A stretch of 64,000 bases of DNA from Bacteroidota bacterium (GTDB lineage Bacteria > Bacteroidota > Bacteroidia > Flavobacteriales_D > Crocinitomicaceae). The translations under genes and the position numbers were made by a program. The first letter of the stretch is position 1. Every line of letters begins with the position of its first letter. The notes under the pieces are model-generated. The model ran no database searches, was not told the origin of the DNA, and saw only the letters and a program-made list of their open reading frames with translations. Below are positions 23,921 through 30,451 of the stretch, piece after piece. The stretch lies in contig JACPUU010000012.1 in NCBI GenBank assembly GCA_016192075.1, positions 310,001-374,000 on the forward strand, given 5' to 3'.

Positions 23921-23967
23921 AAAAAAGCAAGGGGCGGAAGATACGATTTTCCGCCCCTTGCTTTTTT
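23921..23967. terminator. Strong bidirectional terminator
   Basis: A perfect 19-base inverted repeat (23921-23939 and 23949-23967, core GCAAGGGGCGGAA / TTCCGCCCCTTGC) with nine-base loop and A/T runs on both sides. It serves both the HdrB-like gene and the convergent TonB receptor, whose stop codon overlaps its edge. Confidence 0.93.
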
Positions 23968-26437
23968 AAAGCTTAATCAGCAACCGCGTCATAAAATTGA
24001 TTCCCGCCTGCGGATAGTAGAAGTTCTCTGTCGTTGTTTGTCCACCGTAAAAATAACTGTAGGTATACCCATTATTTTCATAAAGTTCATTGAAGAGGTT
24101 GTTGACCTGAACACCTAAAACCAGCTCTTTAAACAATTTGCTTTTCCACGAATAGCTGGCATCTATCGATGAAACAAAATAGGCATTGAGTGAACGGTCG
24201 TCATTAGACGTGTTATCCAGGAACTGTTTGCTGACATATTTTGAAATAAAAGTCAGGCTCATTCCCTTAAACGGTATGTACTCGAGTGCACCCGATGCAA
24301 TCAGGTTTGGTGAAAAGGCCAGGTCGGTATTGGAATGTTGTATGGCAACCTGTCCGCCGTTATCGTAATCATCGTAATATTCTGTGAAAGATGGAATTTT
24401 ATTCTGGCTGTACGTGAAGTTACCTGAAAGACTTAGCCCTTTTGTAATGCGGTATCCTGCTTCCAGTTCAATACCTGCACGGTAGCTTTCGGCTACGTTG
24501 GTTCTGGCATAGGCGCCTACATCATTTATGGCGCCGGTAAGTATCAGTTGATTTTTATAATACATCAGAAATACGTTTGCATTGGTCATAAACCGTGCTG
24601 ATTTGTAACGATAACCCGTTTCAACATTCTGAAGTGTTTCATGTGAGGGGCGTGATCCGGATGTGCTGTTGGTAAAATCATCTCTTACCGGTTCGCGGTT
24701 AGCAACCGCCACAGATGCATAAACATTGTTACGCGCATTGAAGTCATACATGATACCGGCCTTTGGGTTGAAAAAATCATAACTCACATTTTGATCGGTG
24801 TCAACCAGCTCTCCGTTCACCTGGTCTGGCCCGACAAAGGAATAATTGATGTGCCGGTATTGAAGATCGCCGTAGAAGGTGAATTTTTTCCATTCATAGG
24901 TTGCTTTCAGGTAAGAACTTGCATCGAGTTTGGTAGCGTCACTGTCATAGTAGTGATCACGTATCTGGCTGTTTGAAGCAAATTCGGCCCATATAATTTC
25001 ACCGTAATGGCCGCCCAGGTATTGATTAACAGCGCCGCCCCAGGTAATGTCCAGTCCTTTGTGATCTGAATAATTGAGTGAAAATATGCCGCCGTAAAAA
25101 TGGTTATCTAGCCAGCGGCGCCTTATAAAATCGCCATTTGTTACCGTATCGTTTGAAAAAATAACCGGACTTAAACCGTAGTCAGCCAGCGCATCGTTTT
25201 TGCGGTATTGCTCATAATATCCGCGGCCGCGTGTATAATGTGCCGCCAGGTTAAAATTCAATTTGCTGCTGAAGCTGTGAAGAAAATGCAGTTGGTAATG
25301 ATCTTGCTGGTAATGGTCCACTTCGTTTTCATAGGTATAGTAATTGTAGGTTCTGCCAGAGCTGAATAAGTTGGTGCTGTCTCCGGCATCGAGGTAAGTA
25401 ATTCCAAGGTTATTGTAATAGTGCGTGGTTAATGCATCGGTATTCCCTGTAATAACTGCCTGCGGTGTTCCCCACCAGGCCTGGTAGGTAATTTCTTTAC
25501 CACTGAAAACATTGGCGCGCAGTACTGATTTTTTTCCAAGCCAGGCTCCGGAAACATAGAATGATTTAAGATCTGAACTGGCACGGTCAATGTATCCGTC
25601 TGATGTAATTTGTGACAGGCGTGCATCCATCGTAAATTTTCCATCAATTAAACCTGACCCCACTTTAACGGTATTTTTGAGGGTGTTGAATGAACCGTAA
25701 GATGTTCCAACCTCGGCATACGGATCTTTGTGAACTTCATTGGTTTTAATGTTGATGCTGGCACCAAATGCCGCTGCGCCGTTAGAAGAGGTTCCTACAC
25801 CGCGCTGAATTTGAATATTTTCAACAGACGATGCAAAGTCAGGCATGTCTACCCAATAGGTACCGTGTGATTCAGAATCGTTGACCGGAATTCCGTTAAT
25901 GGTTACATTGGTTCGTGTAGGGTCAACACCTCTGATGCGTATGCCTGTATACCCAACGCCTGCGCCTGCATCTGAAGTAACAACCGTAGATGGTGTGAGG
26001 TTAAAAAGATAGGGGAGATCCTGGCCGTAATTGAGTTTTTCTATTTCTGGTAATGAGAGGTTGGTATAGGTTGCTGGTGTTTTATCACCGGCGCGCAGGG
26101 CTGATACAACAATCTCTTCAGATAAATACGAAAGCTCTTCCAGCATATAGTTGCGGGTGAGGTTACCGGTAGAAATCTGTAGCGTATCTTTTTCAGTGAC
26201 ATAACCCAGGGCTGAAATTTCTACAACCCAGGTTCCGGGTTTGATTCCTGAAAGCGTGTATGATCCGTCCGGTGCGGCAACAACTCCCTGAAAGGTATTG
26301 TGGATTACAATCCGGGCAGCCGGTATGCCTTCTCCTGAAAGGGTGGTGATTTTTCCGCTTAAGGTAGATTGAGCATTCGTCAAGTAGGGCACGAACATAA
26401 AAATCGTACCAATTAAGTGTATGTTTCTTGTTTTCAT
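23966..26437 (-). CDS. TonB-dependent receptor, TPP-riboswitch controlled (probable thiamine or precursor uptake)
   Basis: 823 residues. Signal peptide about 1-22 (ends TNAQ), a CarboxypepD_reg-like domain (about 24-110: LSGKITTLSGEGIPAARIVI, GTWVVEISALGYV), a plug domain (about 125-235: GYTGIRIRGVDPTRTNVTIN, IQIQRGVGTSSNGAAAFG) and a 22-strand barrel ending GINFMTRLLIKL with a terminal aromatic-poor strand. Such receptors import large or scarce molecules across the outer membrane with TonB energy. The leader contains a TPP riboswitch, so the cargo is probably thiamine or a precursor (established logic, not shown here). The PnuC-type and kinase genes upstream support vitamin uptake. Confidence 0.9.
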   Translation of the reverse strand: MKTRNIHLIGTIFMFVPYLTNAQSTLSGKITTLSGEGIPAARIVIHNTFQGVVAAPDGSYTLSGIKPGTWVVEISALGYVTEKDTLQISTGNLTRNYMLEELSYLSEEIVVSALRAGDKTPATYTNLSLPEIEKLNYGQDLPYLFNLTPSTVVTSDAGAGVGYTGIRIRGVDPTRTNVTINGIPVNDSESHGTYWVDMPDFASSVENIQIQRGVGTSSNGAAAFGASINIKTNEVHKDPYAEVGTSYGSFNTLKNTVKVGSGLIDGKFTMDARLSQITSDGYIDRASSDLKSFYVSGAWLGKKSVLRANVFSGKEITYQAWWGTPQAVITGNTDALTTHYYNNLGITYLDAGDSTNLFSSGRTYNYYTYENEVDHYQQDHYQLHFLHSFSSKLNFNLAAHYTRGRGYYEQYRKNDALADYGLSPVIFSNDTVTNGDFIRRRWLDNHFYGGIFSLNYSDHKGLDITWGGAVNQYLGGHYGEIIWAEFASNSQIRDHYYDSDATKLDASSYLKATYEWKKFTFYGDLQYRHINYSFVGPDQVNGELVDTDQNVSYDFFNPKAGIMYDFNARNNVYASVAVANREPVRDDFTNSTSGSRPSHETLQNVETGYRYKSARFMTNANVFLMYYKNQLILTGAINDVGAYARTNVAESYRAGIELEAGYRITKGLSLSGNFTYSQNKIPSFTEYYDDYDNGGQVAIQHSNTDLAFSPNLIASGALEYIPFKGMSLTFISKYVSKQFLDNTSNDDRSLNAYFVSSIDASYSWKSKLFKELVLGVQVNNLFNELYENNGYTYSYFYGGQTTTENFYYPQAGINFMTRLLIKL

Positions 26438-26504
26438 GTTTTAAACATTCATACAAGAACAAGGGGCTGATTCCTGGGGATTAATAAATTGGTTACTAGT
26501 TACA

Positions 26505-26588
26505 GTCACTTTCCTTCGCAGGCATTATCCTGATCAGGTCAATGGGTATAATCTCAGCACTGCATGACACAGAGCACCCCTTAGAGAC
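26505..26588 (-). promoter_or_regulatory. TPP riboswitch (THI element)
   Basis: Read on the minus strand the leader contains, in order, AAGGGGTGCT, GTGCTGAGATTATACCC, TTGACCTGATCAGGATAATG and CCTGCGAAGGAAAGTGAC. These are the conserved THI-box blocks (GGGGUGC, CUGAGA..ACCC, ACCUGAUC.GGAUAAUGCC.GCG.AGGGAA). P1 can form between AGAGAC at 26583-26588 and the complementary bases at 26505-26510. It lies 68 bases upstream of the TonB receptor start. It binds thiamine pyrophosphate and represses the gene below it in known cases. Confidence 0.93.
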
Positions 26589-26592
26589 AATG

Positions 26593-26624
26593 CAAAGTTA
26601 AGGTATAAAAAATTGAAAATCCAA
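26593..26624 (-). promoter_or_regulatory. Promoter of the riboswitch leader
   Basis: CAAAGTTA (26593-26600) is TAACTTTG on the minus strand, an exact -7 box; CAA at 26622-26624 gives TTG with a 21-base spacer. Transcription would begin a few bases before the riboswitch, so the receptor has its own transcript. Confidence 0.65.
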
Positions 26625-26681
26625 TCTTGTTTGCTAACAAGCCGGGGTGATAAATTCCAAAAGAGATAGATTGTTTGCCAC

Positions 26682-27194
26682 TCAGGGCAATACTTTTAGC
26701 GTATCAATTGCTTTTACCGCTGCCTGCAGGCGCTCTTCTGCCGCACCTCTGACAATGATAAAATTCAAGTTAAGTTCACGCATTTTTTTGTAATAGCTTT
26801 TAAAAAGCTCATCGCGGTCATATTCATTTTCCCGCAGGGGATCATAGGTCCAGGGTACATCGGTATCACATAAAATGTAAAGATCAAATACCTGCTGCTG
26901 TACTAATTTCTGAATAAGCGGAGATGCTTTTCCATATACCACCACTGACCAAATGTACATGACGATCATGTCCGTATCTGAAATCAAGAGTGGACCATTT
27001 GTAAAATTCTGAATAGATTCCTGCTGGCCTGTGGCAATGGTATCGAGATCTTCCTGCGAATATTTTCCACCGCTTTGCATGAGGAATTCGCGTGAATACT
27101 CAGGTACGAAAGTGGTTTTATAATGAGCAGCCAAAGCCTCAGCAAGACTTGTCTTACCGCAGGACTCGGGACCGGTGATGGCTACGCGGATCAT
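26682..27194 (-). CDS. NadR-like P-loop kinase
   Basis: 170 residues. Walker A is GPESCGKTSLAEAL (8-21), then VPEYSREFL, SDTDMIVMYIWS (Walker B-like) and LCDTDVPWTYDPLRENE, the segment typical of the ribosylnicotinamide kinase domain of NadR. No nucleotidyltransferase domain is attached, so it is a stand-alone kinase. It overlaps the PnuC-type gene upstream by four bases (ATGA), so the two are translationally coupled. Such PnuC/kinase pairs trap an imported vitamin by phosphorylation. The TPP-controlled receptor next door makes thiamine a candidate substrate besides nicotinamide riboside; sequence does not decide. Confidence 0.85.
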   Translation of the reverse strand: MIRVAITGPESCGKTSLAEALAAHYKTTFVPEYSREFLMQSGGKYSQEDLDTIATGQQESIQNFTNGPLLISDTDMIVMYIWSVVVYGKASPLIQKLVQQQVFDLYILCDTDVPWTYDPLRENEYDRDELFKSYYKKMRELNLNFIIVRGAAEERLQAAVKAIDTLKVLP

Positions 27195-27838
27195 GCCCTG
27201 AAATCAGATTTTGAATCAATCACATCCGTATGGCCGGGATCGTTTTTTTGCAGGTGATATTGCCTGGTCCATTGCACCAGGGCGTAGATTGCCATGCCTG
27301 TAAAAATTCCGTAAAGTAGTGCTGAAAGGACAAGATCACGCGATGCATAAAGGAAGATGGCTGCGAAATCTACCACAATCCAATAGATCCAGTTTTCAAG
27401 TACTTTTCGCGCAGTCATAAAGGTAGCCACTAAACTGAAAACGGTTATGGATGCGTCCAGGTAAGCACTTGCCTGGTTGGTGTGCTGTTCAAAAACAAAA
27501 CCAATTATAAAGGCCAGAAAAAGTCCGAGGCACAGTATTTTTATATGAAACCAGGCGTTTCGGGTGGCTATTTTAAGTGTTGAACCAACAGCCGTTTTCC
27601 AGGTTATCCAACCATAGACAGACATAATAACATAAAAAAGCTGAAGACCTGTTTCAATGTATAGTTGAGCCGTAAAACAGAGATAAACATAGATGACAGA
27701 ACTGATAAGCCCAAAAAACCAGCACAGAATTTTTTCATAAGCGGCCAGTGCTACATAGGTAATACCGGTTAATACGGCAATCCATTCCAACACGGTGGTT
27801 TCTTTAACTGCCTGTATGAGATTTTCAGTAAATGCCAT
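27191..27838 (-). CDS. PnuC-family vitamin transporter (nicotinamide riboside or thiamine)
   Basis: 215 residues from the ATG at 27836-27838; the longer frame would need a TTG start. About seven membrane segments. Family marks: EWIAVLTGITYVALAAYEK, WFFGLISSVIYVYLCF, LQLFYVIMSVYGWITW and the C-terminal NWIYWIVVDFAAIFLY. PnuC-type proteins are energy-independent facilitators for nicotinamide riboside; related groups PnuT and PnuX move thiamine and riboflavin. The downstream overlapping kinase gene provides metabolic trapping. The next gene in the same direction is TPP-riboswitch controlled, which favours a PnuT role, but the riboswitch itself is not in front of this gene. Confidence 0.85.
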   Translation of the reverse strand: MAFTENLIQAVKETTVLEWIAVLTGITYVALAAYEKILCWFFGLISSVIYVYLCFTAQLYIETGLQLFYVIMSVYGWITWKTAVGSTLKIATRNAWFHIKILCLGLFLAFIIGFVFEQHTNQASAYLDASITVFSLVATFMTARKVLENWIYWIVVDFAAIFLYASRDLVLSALLYGIFTGMAIYALVQWTRQYHLQKNDPGHTDVIDSKSDFRA

Positions 27839-27936: not shown

Positions 27937-28011
27937 GGGATATTAGCTCAGCTGGTTTAGAGCACTACCTCGACAAGGTAGGGGCCACTGGTTCGAATCC
28001 AGTATATCCCA
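27937..28011 (+). tRNA. tRNA-Val (anticodon GAC)
   Basis: A 75-base cloverleaf. Acceptor GGGATAT pairs with ATATCCC (28004-28010), D stem GCTC/GAGC, anticodon stem CTACC/GGTAG with loop TCGACAA, T arm ACTGG TTCGAAT CCAGT, discriminator A at 28011. The anticodon GAC is at 27972-27974. CCA is not encoded. Position 33, almost always U, is C here (27971). Confidence 0.95.
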
Positions 28012-28184: not shown

Positions 28185-28283
28185 AAAATTCAGTTTCAAA
28201 AGCGCACAAACAAAAAAGCAAGAAATTAGCAATCGGGTTTGGCTTTTGGTTTGGGGGCGAATGAATATTCGCCCATACCAATC
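28185..28283. repeat. Intergenic direct repeat, copy 1
   Basis: About 99 bases nearly identical to 28321-28420. It holds a degenerate hairpin (AAAAAAGCAAGAAATTAGC...GGCTTTT) and the perfect palindrome GGGCGAAT-gaat-ATTCGCCC followed by ATACCA. No coding potential seen between the tRNA and the C25-like gene. Confidence 0.85.
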
Positions 28284-28320: not shown

Positions 28321-28420
28321 AAAATTTAGTTTCAAAAGCGCACAAACAAAAAAGCAAGAAATTAGCAATCGGGTTTGGGTTTTGGCTTGGGGGCGAATCA
28401 ATATTCGCCCATACCAAATC
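28321..28420. repeat. Intergenic direct repeat, copy 2
   Basis: Second copy, offset 136 bases. The arms of the GGGCGAAT/ATTCGCCC palindrome are unchanged while the four-base loop is caat instead of gaat. The rest of 28284-28483 is short unique spacer without genes. Confidence 0.85.
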
Positions 28421-28483: not shown

Positions 28484-30451
28484 TTACTCCTTCACAAATT
28501 TTACAGCTGTATGTGTCGAATTCATAAGAACCAGTGTATAATTTCCGGCAGCCAGTTTTGAAATGTCAATGACCTGGTTTGACGAATTAACCGTACCGGA
28601 TACCATTAATTTTCCAGCTGCATCGATGACCTGATAACCGGAACCTACTACTTCGTCCGGCAGTGTAAGTTGAATAAATTGCTGCGCCGGATTTGGATAC
28701 AGTTTCACGGTCACGTCATTTTCAACTGCAATTCCTACGGTTGAAACAGCGCTGATTTTAGCCCCGAGTGATTCATTTTCATAAGACCCCGAAGGTGTTG
28801 TTTTCATTTCAACAGCTTTAACGTAATAATAGACCGTTCCTGCAACGGGCAATGTATTGTCTGTATAAGTCAACGCGGTAATTGGTGTGGTATTTAATTT
28901 TACAAAGTCAACCGAATCAGCATACCGCCGGTAAATATTGTAACCGGTTTCACTGCCTCCTGCTAACCATGTCAGATCATTGGAATTTCCGTTAGCGGTT
29001 ACGGCAACATTGGTTGGCTGTGGAATGTAGAACAGGCGCAGCGATGGATCACCCATCAGGTTAACGGATACCATTCGCGCCAGACCGCTGTAAACGCTTG
29101 AAATATAAAGCGCGTTGTTATTTTGTGTAAGCCGTGTTGCGTAACCAATGTTTTCACCCATGGCCATGTGATTGAAATACCAGTTAGGGCGTCCGGCCCA
29201 GCAATTGGTGAGTGTATTTCCCTGCGCCAGCGGCGCACGCAAAAAAGCATTCTGATAATGCCAGTCACCAAAATAAGAGCCGAATAACATCGTAAACGGG
29301 GCGCTCAGTGTATCGGTTGTAAAATTGCTGGTATTGCCAATTCCTCCGGCGCTGGTATAGGTTCCGCCACCACAGCCATAGGCCCATAAATAAGTTCCGG
29401 TGGTGGAGGTAGTGTAACTTAATTGCGTGAAATAATCGGCCTGAACGGTATTGCTTCTTCCAACAATGGCAGCAAAATTATTGTAACCGCTTTGTGAAAA
29501 TCCTTCGTCATACGAGGTGAAATTATCATCAATCAGCGCTTGTTCACCAACCAGAATCTGTGCCGTTTTGAAACGATGGTTTTTGTCCATGTAACGAATC
29601 AGCAGCTCTTCTTCCGTTACTGAAAAAGCCGGCAGATTGGAAAGATCAACGCGACCAGCCTGAAGGTCAACATCTGACGGAATGTAAGATTGGTCAAATT
29701 TACCATCACCCGGCGTGTTGTGATTGAGGGTATTGGATGATACGGTATTGTTTACGGAAGCATCGGTCCAGGTACCATTCACATCGGCGTAATAGGTGTC
29801 TGTAGGCCAGGCTCCTTCGTGATCCGGATGCCCGTCAGGGTTCAGTTCGCCCGAATGCGGCACGGGTACATTGCCCAGCAATATCAGCAGTTTTGTTTTG
29901 GAAGGATTTTCATTGTAGCTGGTTAGTATAGCAGCCTTTACAGTTGTCACCTGGTCAGCTGAACTGACGTAAATGGTTTTTGGGTACCAGCCATCCAGCT
30001 CAAGGTCTTCTAAAAAAACATCGGTTGCAGTTTGAAAGGGAATGTTGGCCATGTAGGTTGATTCAATAACCACCAGGGCAATTCCGCGATTGCTGTTTGC
30101 GGTGACCTCAATGCCTGAAGACAGGTAACCGTATTTAGTTGGGGAAGACCCTGAGGTCATCTGAATTTTATAATCATACAACGTATTCACAGTAACTGCT
30201 GCATCGGTATAACCGGTTGCATTGGCCGGTAATGTTGCAATTGCTGTGCCCCACGAGGCGGCTCCCTTTGCTTTACGGTACACCACAAAATTGGTGGCGT
30301 CGTTGTCAGCCGGCCAGTTCAGACTGATGGAAGGGGCCAAAGCATCAACCGTTGCTTCAGCCTTTACTGAAAGTGAATCACCGTAAGGTTGTGAAAAAGC
30401 AGCGGGAATTAAAGTGATGCTTAAACTTATCAGGGTAAAGAGTTTTTTCAT
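28484..30451 (-). CDS. Secreted C25-like (gingipain-fold) protein with T9SS sorting domain
   Basis: 655 residues. Signal peptide about 1-20 (ends AAFS). An Fn3-like domain (about 30-115) precedes a Rossmann-like region (about 122-475) that resembles peptidase C25: LVVIESTYM, LLILLGNVPVPHSGELN, DLQAGRVDLSNLP, and the family-typical end NLMGDPSLRLF (464-474). A second Fn3 (about 478-565) and a type A sorting domain (about 575-655; VKLYPNPAQQFIQL, AGNYTLVLM) follow. In active C25 enzymes a His-Gly pair and a downstream Cys form the dyad. Here the corresponding places read WAYGCGGG (356-363) and FTMLFGSYFGDW (386-397), without the expected His or Cys. It may be an inactive relative. Exported by T9SS. 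Confidence 0.8.
   Translation of the reverse strand: MKKLFTLISLSITLIPAAFSQPYGDSLSVKAEATVDALAPSISLNWPADNDATNFVVYRKAKGAASWGTAIATLPANATGYTDAAVTVNTLYDYKIQMTSGSSPTKYGYLSSGIEVTANSNRGIALVVIESTYMANIPFQTATDVFLEDLELDGWYPKTIYVSSADQVTTVKAAILTSYNENPSKTKLLILLGNVPVPHSGELNPDGHPDHEGAWPTDTYYADVNGTWTDASVNNTVSSNTLNHNTPGDGKFDQSYIPSDVDLQAGRVDLSNLPAFSVTEEELLIRYMDKNHRFKTAQILVGEQALIDDNFTSYDEGFSQSGYNNFAAIVGRSNTVQADYFTQLSYTTSTTGTYLWAYGCGGGTYTSAGGIGNTSNFTTDTLSAPFTMLFGSYFGDWHYQNAFLRAPLAQGNTLTNCWAGRPNWYFNHMAMGENIGYATRLTQNNNALYISSVYSGLARMVSVNLMGDPSLRLFYIPQPTNVAVTANGNSNDLTWLAGGSETGYNIYRRYADSVDFVKLNTTPITALTYTDNTLPVAGTVYYYVKAVEMKTTPSGSYENESLGAKISAVSTVGIAVENDVTVKLYPNPAQQFIQLTLPDEVVGSGYQVIDAAGKLMVSGTVNSSNQVIDISKLAAGNYTLVLMNSTHTAVKFVKE

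Follow-up and report, generated by a model that had tools for sequence, protein, structure and literature searches.

We analyzed a 64,000-nucleotide stretch of the genome of a Bacteroidota bacterium of the family Crocinitomicaceae (hereafter, the window; positions 310,001 to 374,000 of contig JACPUU010000012.1), which contains, on the minus strand and in this order, a gene for a PnuC family transporter, a gene for a stand-alone NadR-like kinase, a thiamine pyrophosphate (TPP) riboswitch (THI element) and a gene for a TonB-dependent receptor (Table 1). The coordinates, the profile matches and the RF00059 score confirm an earlier note on this DNA, which described a THI element before the receptor gene and a PnuC family transporter overlapping a NadR-like kinase on the same strand; the two reading frames overlap by 4 nt. 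The note also stated that TPP riboswitches in Bacteroidota often control thiamine receptors and the PnuT branch of the PnuC family. In this genome, the riboswitch does not precede the pnuC-kinase pair; it starts 89 nt past the stop codon of the kinase gene and can directly act on the receptor only.

Table 1. Features of the predicted thiamine uptake locus and its upstream boundary
Feature	Position in the window	Strand	Evidence and remarks
TonB-dependent receptor, 823 aa, proposed thiamine outer-membrane receptor (OMthi type)	23966..26437	-	Plug, barrel and carboxypeptidase-regulatory-like (CarboxypepD_reg) domains; riboswitch directly in front
Candidate switching segment GCCCCTTG	26460..26467	-	6-nt Watson-Crick complement of aptamer AAGGGG
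TPP riboswitch aptamer (THI element)	26494..26592	-	RF00059, 59.6 bits (gathering score 54.3), E 3.7e-9
NadR-like stand-alone kinase, 170 aa, proposed thiamine kinase	26682..27194	-	PF13521 (AAA_28), 101.1 bits (cut-off 27); Walker A GPESCGKT
pnuC family transporter gene, assigned to the PnuT (thiamine) type from its context and phylogeny	27191..27838	-	PF04973, 169.5 bits (cut-off 27.3)
tRNA, upstream boundary of the gene group	27937-28011	+	

By its PF04973 score, the transporter belongs to the PnuC superfamily, and it is the only match to this family in its genome; likewise, the kinase is the only match to PF13521. Of the NadR model TIGR01526 (325 positions), the protein matches the kinase half alone, at positions 164-320 (100.9 bits against a cut-off of 341), in agreement with the initial observation that it consists of the ribosylnicotinamide kinase domain alone. 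The 170-aa protein thus lacks the nicotinamide mononucleotide (NMN) adenylyltransferase domain that precedes the kinase domain in bifunctional NadR, and AAA_28 is its only match in Pfam, with no sign of the aminoglycoside-phosphotransferase-type domain of ThiK. The Walker A motif and the conserved Asp and Arg residues are invariant, as befits a NadR-like P-loop kinase. The AlphaFold2 model of the kinase (mean predicted local distance difference test score, pLDDT, 95.1) most closely matches the NadR kinase domain 8x7f (Z 22.9, 2.0 Å over 170 residues), followed by thymidylate kinases; judging by the model, the fold is that expected of a kinase for small molecules, but it leaves the choice of substrate undecided. 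The receptor, located directly behind a TPP riboswitch, has the arrangement typical of OMthi, and its homologs also stand behind riboswitches in relatives; thiamine transport by this protein is predicted from sequence and context.

The RNA element, which scores above the RF00059 gathering threshold, is predicted to bind TPP. Within 70 nt past the aptamer, 25 of the 39 riboswitch leaders, including that of the window, contain a stretch of 6 nt or more that is complementary to the GGGG region of the aptamer core; Watson-Crick complements of this length occur in only 3.9% of shuffled leaders, although related leaders are not independent. This test replaced one that allowed G-U pairs and was too permissive (mean 8.2 observed versus 7.5 shuffled). 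The minimum-free-energy fold of the window leader pairs the CCCCTT segment with the aptamer core; given that the leader overall folds no better than shuffled sequences (z 0.23), this fold alone is no evidence, and it is the combination of complementary segments in most leaders with the window fold that makes a competing anti-aptamer likely. How TPP riboswitches function in Bacteroidetes is described as uncertain in PMC5613172, where the transporter transcripts of Bacteroides thetaiotaomicron are reported to change little with thiamine, which calls for caution regarding the control step.

The genome that harbors the locus (4.65 Mb, 99.94% complete) contains two matches to the TPP riboswitch, namely the window element and one before the thiC operon, and encodes ThiC and ThiL, together with a ThiD-like protein and other de novo thiamine biosynthesis proteins, the names of these last being assigned by eye. 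No thiamine pyrophosphokinase (TPK) was detected in a search limited to PF04263, ThiK not being sought; thus, the only activating route found for imported thiamine is the kinase followed by ThiL. Among 59 related genomes, the kinase is present in 33, PnuC in 38 and TPK in four. The kinase search matched 34 of these genomes, and the match in G019 (53 residues, 1.1e-4) was dropped as a chance hit; G022, with two weak matches (best 1.4e-19) and no PnuC, was kept. Within the 38 PnuC-encoding genomes, the kinase and TPK alternate: 32 have the kinase only, four TPK only, none both, and two, which are 59% and 81% complete, neither (Fisher test, 2e-4, relatedness ignored). TPK is found in none of the 21 relatives that lack PnuC, and weak relatives of the kinase in one of these, G022. 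The genes for the kinase and PnuC are side by side in 26 of the 32 genomes.

The alternation with TPK extends to a sample of 198 genomes drawn over the phylum, of which 93 showed any match to the kinase; only matches of at least 80 bits were used. The 36 genomes with stand-alone kinases (frames shorter than 300 aa, except in G128, where a 498-aa frame runs into an epimerase-like part as judged by eye) contain no TPK, encode ThiC in four cases, and all have ThiL above the cut-off, including all 32 that lack ThiC; family f17, with kinases that make up a subgroup of their own, accounts for nine of the 36. By comparison, among the 89 TPK-encoding genomes without a stand-alone or fused kinase, 82 lack ThiC, and ThiL is above the cut-off in 37 of these (at least 280 bits in six). 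The six genomes with only a NadR-length frame, not all of which were examined, include one with TPK and six with ThiL; three genomes (G152, G223 and G239; no TPK, ThiL in all three) were set aside. Because a kinase that makes thiamine monophosphate (ThMP) needs ThiL and TPK does not, this pattern fits ThMP as the product. Direct synthesis of TPP by pyrophosphate transfer, which would amount to a new fold for TPK activity, is compatible with the alternation as such, but sits poorly with the universal presence of ThiL in the ThiC-less kinase genomes as against its patchy presence in the TPK genomes, and also with the NadR/thymidylate kinase-like fold, which is the fold of monophosphate transfer; we consider this reaction highly improbable. 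The retention of ThiL in all 36 genomes could also be accounted for if the kinase acted on a thiamine precursor, the thiazole alcohol or hydroxymethylpyrimidine (HMP), imported by PnuC, with ThiE and ThiL completing the cofactor. ThiE-like genes are indeed found near some of the loci (L168, L169 and L080), and the thiamine-binding-like proteins described below could bind precursors, as YkoF does. However, thiamine itself is the substrate of TPK, which takes the place of the kinase in genomes whose transporters are related, and the genome studied here already has the ThiD-like and other de novo genes, so that a precursor kinase appears unlikely.

The phylogenetic tree of the transporters bears on the most conservative interpretation of the locus, namely classical salvage of nicotinamide riboside (NR), in which PnuC would import NR, the kinase would convert it to NMN, and the adjacent thiamine receptor would be a coincidence. 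In a careful tree of 135 PnuC sequences, the window protein belongs to a clade of 29 members (support 99/96) that includes all four PnuCs from TPK genomes; these occupy three places within the clade, so that the tree calls for three changes between the kinase and TPK states; the starred branches force at least two, the position of the long-branched G019 protein being unsure. Outside the clade are PnuC of Escherichia coli, that of Neisseria mucosa and four PnuCs paired with NadR-length kinases; E. coli and N. mucosa PnuC were joined in a quick tree and are split in the careful one, and lie outside the window clade in both. Placement of the window protein within the classical PnuC clade, the outcome that the earlier note had named as one that would speak against its proposal, is therefore not what we observed: the protein groups with TPK-genome and riboswitch-linked transporters. 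The grouping with transporters from TPK genomes, apart from the NR transporters, is that of PnuT, and thiamine is the predicted substrate; the assayed PnuT of Shewanella woodyi is not among the sequences in the tree. Together with its counterparts in L188 and L182, the PnuC of G018 forms a group (97 in the quick tree), its identity to the L188 protein being 75.6%; in G018, the gene order is pnuC-THI-receptor, with TPK encoded elsewhere, whereas L188 and L182 show pnuC-kinase-THI-receptor. By sequence comparison, then, the phosphorylating enzyme is exchanged around a transporter that is retained.

The kinases separate in a similar manner. The tree was built by a quick method from 95 of 153 sequences, with 40 of the 98 sequences lacking a riboswitch drawn at random and nine of the 12 f17 sequences included. 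The window kinase belongs to a group of 80 sequences split from NadR by a branch with a support of 99 in the Shimodaira-Hasegawa-like approximate likelihood ratio test (SH-aLRT), with long branches among the NadR sequences, and does not fall with the kinase domains of E. coli and Haemophilus influenzae NadR. Trp82 is present in 99% of the 134 stand-alone kinases, in contrast to Tyr or Phe in the six NadR domains; the 12 f17 sequences also have Tyr or Phe. Furthermore, one genome (G026) carries both kinds of transporter, one PnuC paired with NadR and another with a stand-alone kinase. NR salvage draws on the Pfam and NCBIfam names of the kinase, on its nearest solved structures, which are those of NadR, and on G044, where the only PnuC groups with NadR-paired ones even though the kinase adjoins a riboswitch. 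Against these stand the alternation of the kinase with TPK, the separate transporter clade, the two coexisting pairs, the Trp82 signature and the linkage to the riboswitch, and we reject NR salvage as the leading view, regarding it as unlikely.

The arrangement of the locus recurs in relatives and is not due to chance. The kinase search yielded 580 confirmed relatives, of which 80 named loci were kept; in 58 of these, pnuC is directly upstream of the kinase gene, and in 23, a TPP riboswitch is present in the locus DNA scanned. This retention of gene order in many relatives, a comparison that had been suggested on the basis of the window sequence, contradicts the alternative raised in the same place, two unrelated vitamin loci lying side by side, which we rejected. 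Of the 33 kinase genomes in the set of 59 relatives, 14 have a match to the riboswitch in the 400 nt that follow the kinase gene, and in five of these it exceeds the gathering score. Where a riboswitch follows the kinase gene in the named loci (22 cases), the aptamer starts 6-63 nt past the kinase stop codon in 13 and 193-2162 nt past it in the other nine, compared with 89 nt in the window; the short spacing suggests a riboswitch located inside a single operon. In G036, PnuC and the kinase are fused within a single open frame of 397 aa. Of the 168 loci scanned, two have a TPP riboswitch ahead of pnuC. In L232 (Niabella), it precedes pnuC, with the kinase encoded elsewhere on the opposite strand; in L067, the order is THI, a thiamine-binding-protein-like gene, pnuC, kinase, THI, receptor. 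These two additional elements were found with our own model, score below the Rfam thresholds (32.1 bits for L067; neither is listed at E 0.01) and, as judged by eye, retain the core motifs of the aptamer.

Some of these loci also contain a gene for a small Thiamine_BP/YKOF-type protein; YkoF-type proteins bind thiamine. Among 97 stand-alone pairs, 22 have such a gene immediately before pnuC, as does the single fusion; it precedes pnuC in eight of nine unfused f17 pairs and in none of the three in which the kinase is fused to DUF4301, and is found next to none of the four NadR-paired and none of the four TPK-genome pnuC genes, and to one of 14 without an adjacent kinase gene (one of 133 PnuC sequences, with less than 450 nt upstream, was omitted). 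Pfam was used to check the name on 11 proteins, of which four score above the gathering threshold, six match more weakly (E<0.01) and one does not match; the remaining assignments rest on our own profile. In L209 and L238, the Thiamine_BP-like gene directly precedes the kinase gene, with no pnuC in the locus DNA scanned, which ties it to the kinase itself.

Taken together, these observations make it likely that the locus encodes a thiamine uptake-and-trap system in which the NadR-like kinase is a non-orthologous replacement for TPK. We infer the substrate, the product, the trapping and the direction of the switch as follows. The TonB-dependent receptor would carry thiamine across the outer membrane and the PnuC family (PnuT-like) transporter across the inner one; the kinase would then convert thiamine to ThMP, which would be held in the cell and converted to TPP by ThiL, encoded elsewhere in the genome. 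TPP, in turn, would bind the riboswitch between the kinase and receptor genes and lower the expression of the receptor, probably through competition of the CCCCTT segment for the aptamer. The suggestion in the earlier note that the kinase traps thiamine after entry through a PnuC-type transporter thus gains support from the alternation with TPK, from the presence of ThiL without a detected TPK in the same genome, and from the retention of ThiL in ThiC-less kinase genomes; the trees of the kinase and PnuC, the riboswitches before pnuC in two relatives, the Thiamine_BP-like neighbor and the PnuC-kinase fusion add to it.

Several observations weigh against this interpretation. The bacterium makes thiamine de novo, and the search for TPK in its genome was narrow. 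The kinase and PnuC genes lie apart in six of the 32 genomes that have both (G037, G038, G044, G045, G051 and G057), and the grouping of the only PnuC of G044 speaks against a fixed partnership. No riboswitch was found in the scanned DNA of 57 of the 80 named loci; next to pnuC in the four TPK genomes, one was found only in G018, with none in the other three; and the Thiamine_BP-like gene is absent before pnuC in 75 of the 97 stand-alone pairs, that of the window among them. Given the NadR fold, NR kinase activity is compatible with the structure. The pattern in the phylum-wide survey, where relatedness was ignored, follows classes, the kinase and TPK groups differing in class, and many of the TPK genomes possess ThiL above the cut-off as well. 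Finally, seven genomes of genus g47 (family f17) carry both TPK and the kinase, the latter in a frame of 733-800 aa. In three of these (G079, G113 and G226), the kinase is seen fused to DUF4301 and located beside pnuC, with a riboswitch and receptor following in two of the three; the fusion in the other four is inferred from frame length. This shows that genomic linkage alone does not guarantee a single function. The f17 kinases in the tree, fused or not, lie with NadR, across the strongly supported branch from the group of the window kinase, so the g47 exception does not touch the clade of the latter.

In family f17, DUF4301 is found beside pnuC either fused to the kinase (L164, L167 and L173) or encoded by a separate gene after it (L165, L171, L172, L174, L175 and L176); the domain was named (PF14134) on the unfused homolog in L171 and assigned to the other loci by similarity. 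Several of these loci also hold a TPP riboswitch and a receptor gene. DUF4301 could perform a further step of vitamin use; its structural model is poor (mean pLDDT 63.4).

The system resembles the PnuC-NadR route of NR salvage in that a PnuC family transporter is paired with a P-loop kinase of the same superfamily under the same trapping logic; unlike in that route, the kinase has no NMN adenylyltransferase domain, both proteins belong to different clades, and the context is that of thiamine. The two steps from thiamine through ThMP to TPP are those of the enterobacterial ThiK-ThiL salvage pathway; ThiK has an aminoglycoside phosphotransferase fold, unlike the window kinase with its sole match to AAA_28. 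The thiamine system of B. thetaiotaomicron consists of OMthi, PnuT and tnr3 (PMC5613172) and shares with the window the TPP riboswitch, the TonB-dependent receptor, the PnuC family transporter and a phosphorylating enzyme encoded next to the transporter. It differs in that the window has a NadR-like kinase in place of tnr3 and no PF04263 match in the genome, such that ThiL is needed, and in that the riboswitch lies between the kinase and receptor genes. PnuT genes with TPP riboswitches have been noted, and the specificity of these PnuC-like transporters read from the riboswitch, as we do here; no NadR-like kinase is named in the portion of that article available (PMC7749635). In other papers, omr1 and pnuC are reported as the main transcripts for vitamin B1 uptake in Baltic Bacteroidetes (PMC12442306), PnuT and OMthi are reviewed (PMC6977713), ThiL or ThiN is given as the last step and PnuT as the transporter (PMC6593275), and NadR of Lactococcus lactis is described (PMC7221760). 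No mention of a NadR-like thiamine kinase was found among the titles, abstract openings and passages listed in the literature searched, which excludes most subscription papers, and its absence speaks only weakly for novelty. The locus hence combines a known design of uptake with what looks like a new family of trapping enzymes.

More generally, the stand-alone NadR-like kinases of Bacteroidota, currently annotated as NadR or AAA ATPases, probably constitute a distinct, unnamed family of thiamine kinases that replaced TPK and provide the missing first step of salvage in many ThiC-less members of the phylum, with operons that in many cases carry an internal TPP riboswitch and, in certain lineages, a Thiamine_BP-like partner. 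ThiC and TPK are both missing from many Bacteroidota with a PnuC-type transporter; this applies to 32 of the 198 genomes surveyed, in all of which the kinase and ThiL are present, so that the kinase is a concrete candidate for the step that is lacking. If this assignment is correct, a widespread family of proteins that at present carry the name of a vitamin B3 enzyme would need reannotation, predictions of vitamin B1 use and sharing would be altered, and a single transporter-kinase design would have moved between vitamins.

Outside the typical configuration, the kinase of L013 (genome G013) runs into a C-terminal domain that, by eye, resembles a GNAT acetyltransferase. Genome G022 encodes, immediately upstream of the TPP riboswitch and thiC (L065, 4959-5435, minus strand), an AAA_28-like protein that is diverged and scores under the Pfam cut-off; this protein has no recognizable P-loop, which is present in the second diverged copy (L066, 5432-5926). 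The kinase and PnuC from L200 (titled Actinomyces viscosus) and L245 (Alphaproteobacteria) group with those of Bacteroidota in the trees, and the kinase from L241 (titled Desulfobacteraceae) is 42% identical to that of the window; these are possibly misnamed records or mixed bins of metagenome-assembled genomes. No relative was found in the viral collection; the plasmid search returned 19 records, and among the 10 listed, five are from E. coli, three of these annotated as nadR. Upstream of the gene group, between the tRNA gene and the next gene, there are two direct repeats of 97 nt that are 96% identical (window positions 28185-28281 and 28321-28417), followed at 28484-30451 on the minus strand by a gene whose 655-aa product ends in a sorting domain of a secretion system (Por_Secre_tail, PF18962).

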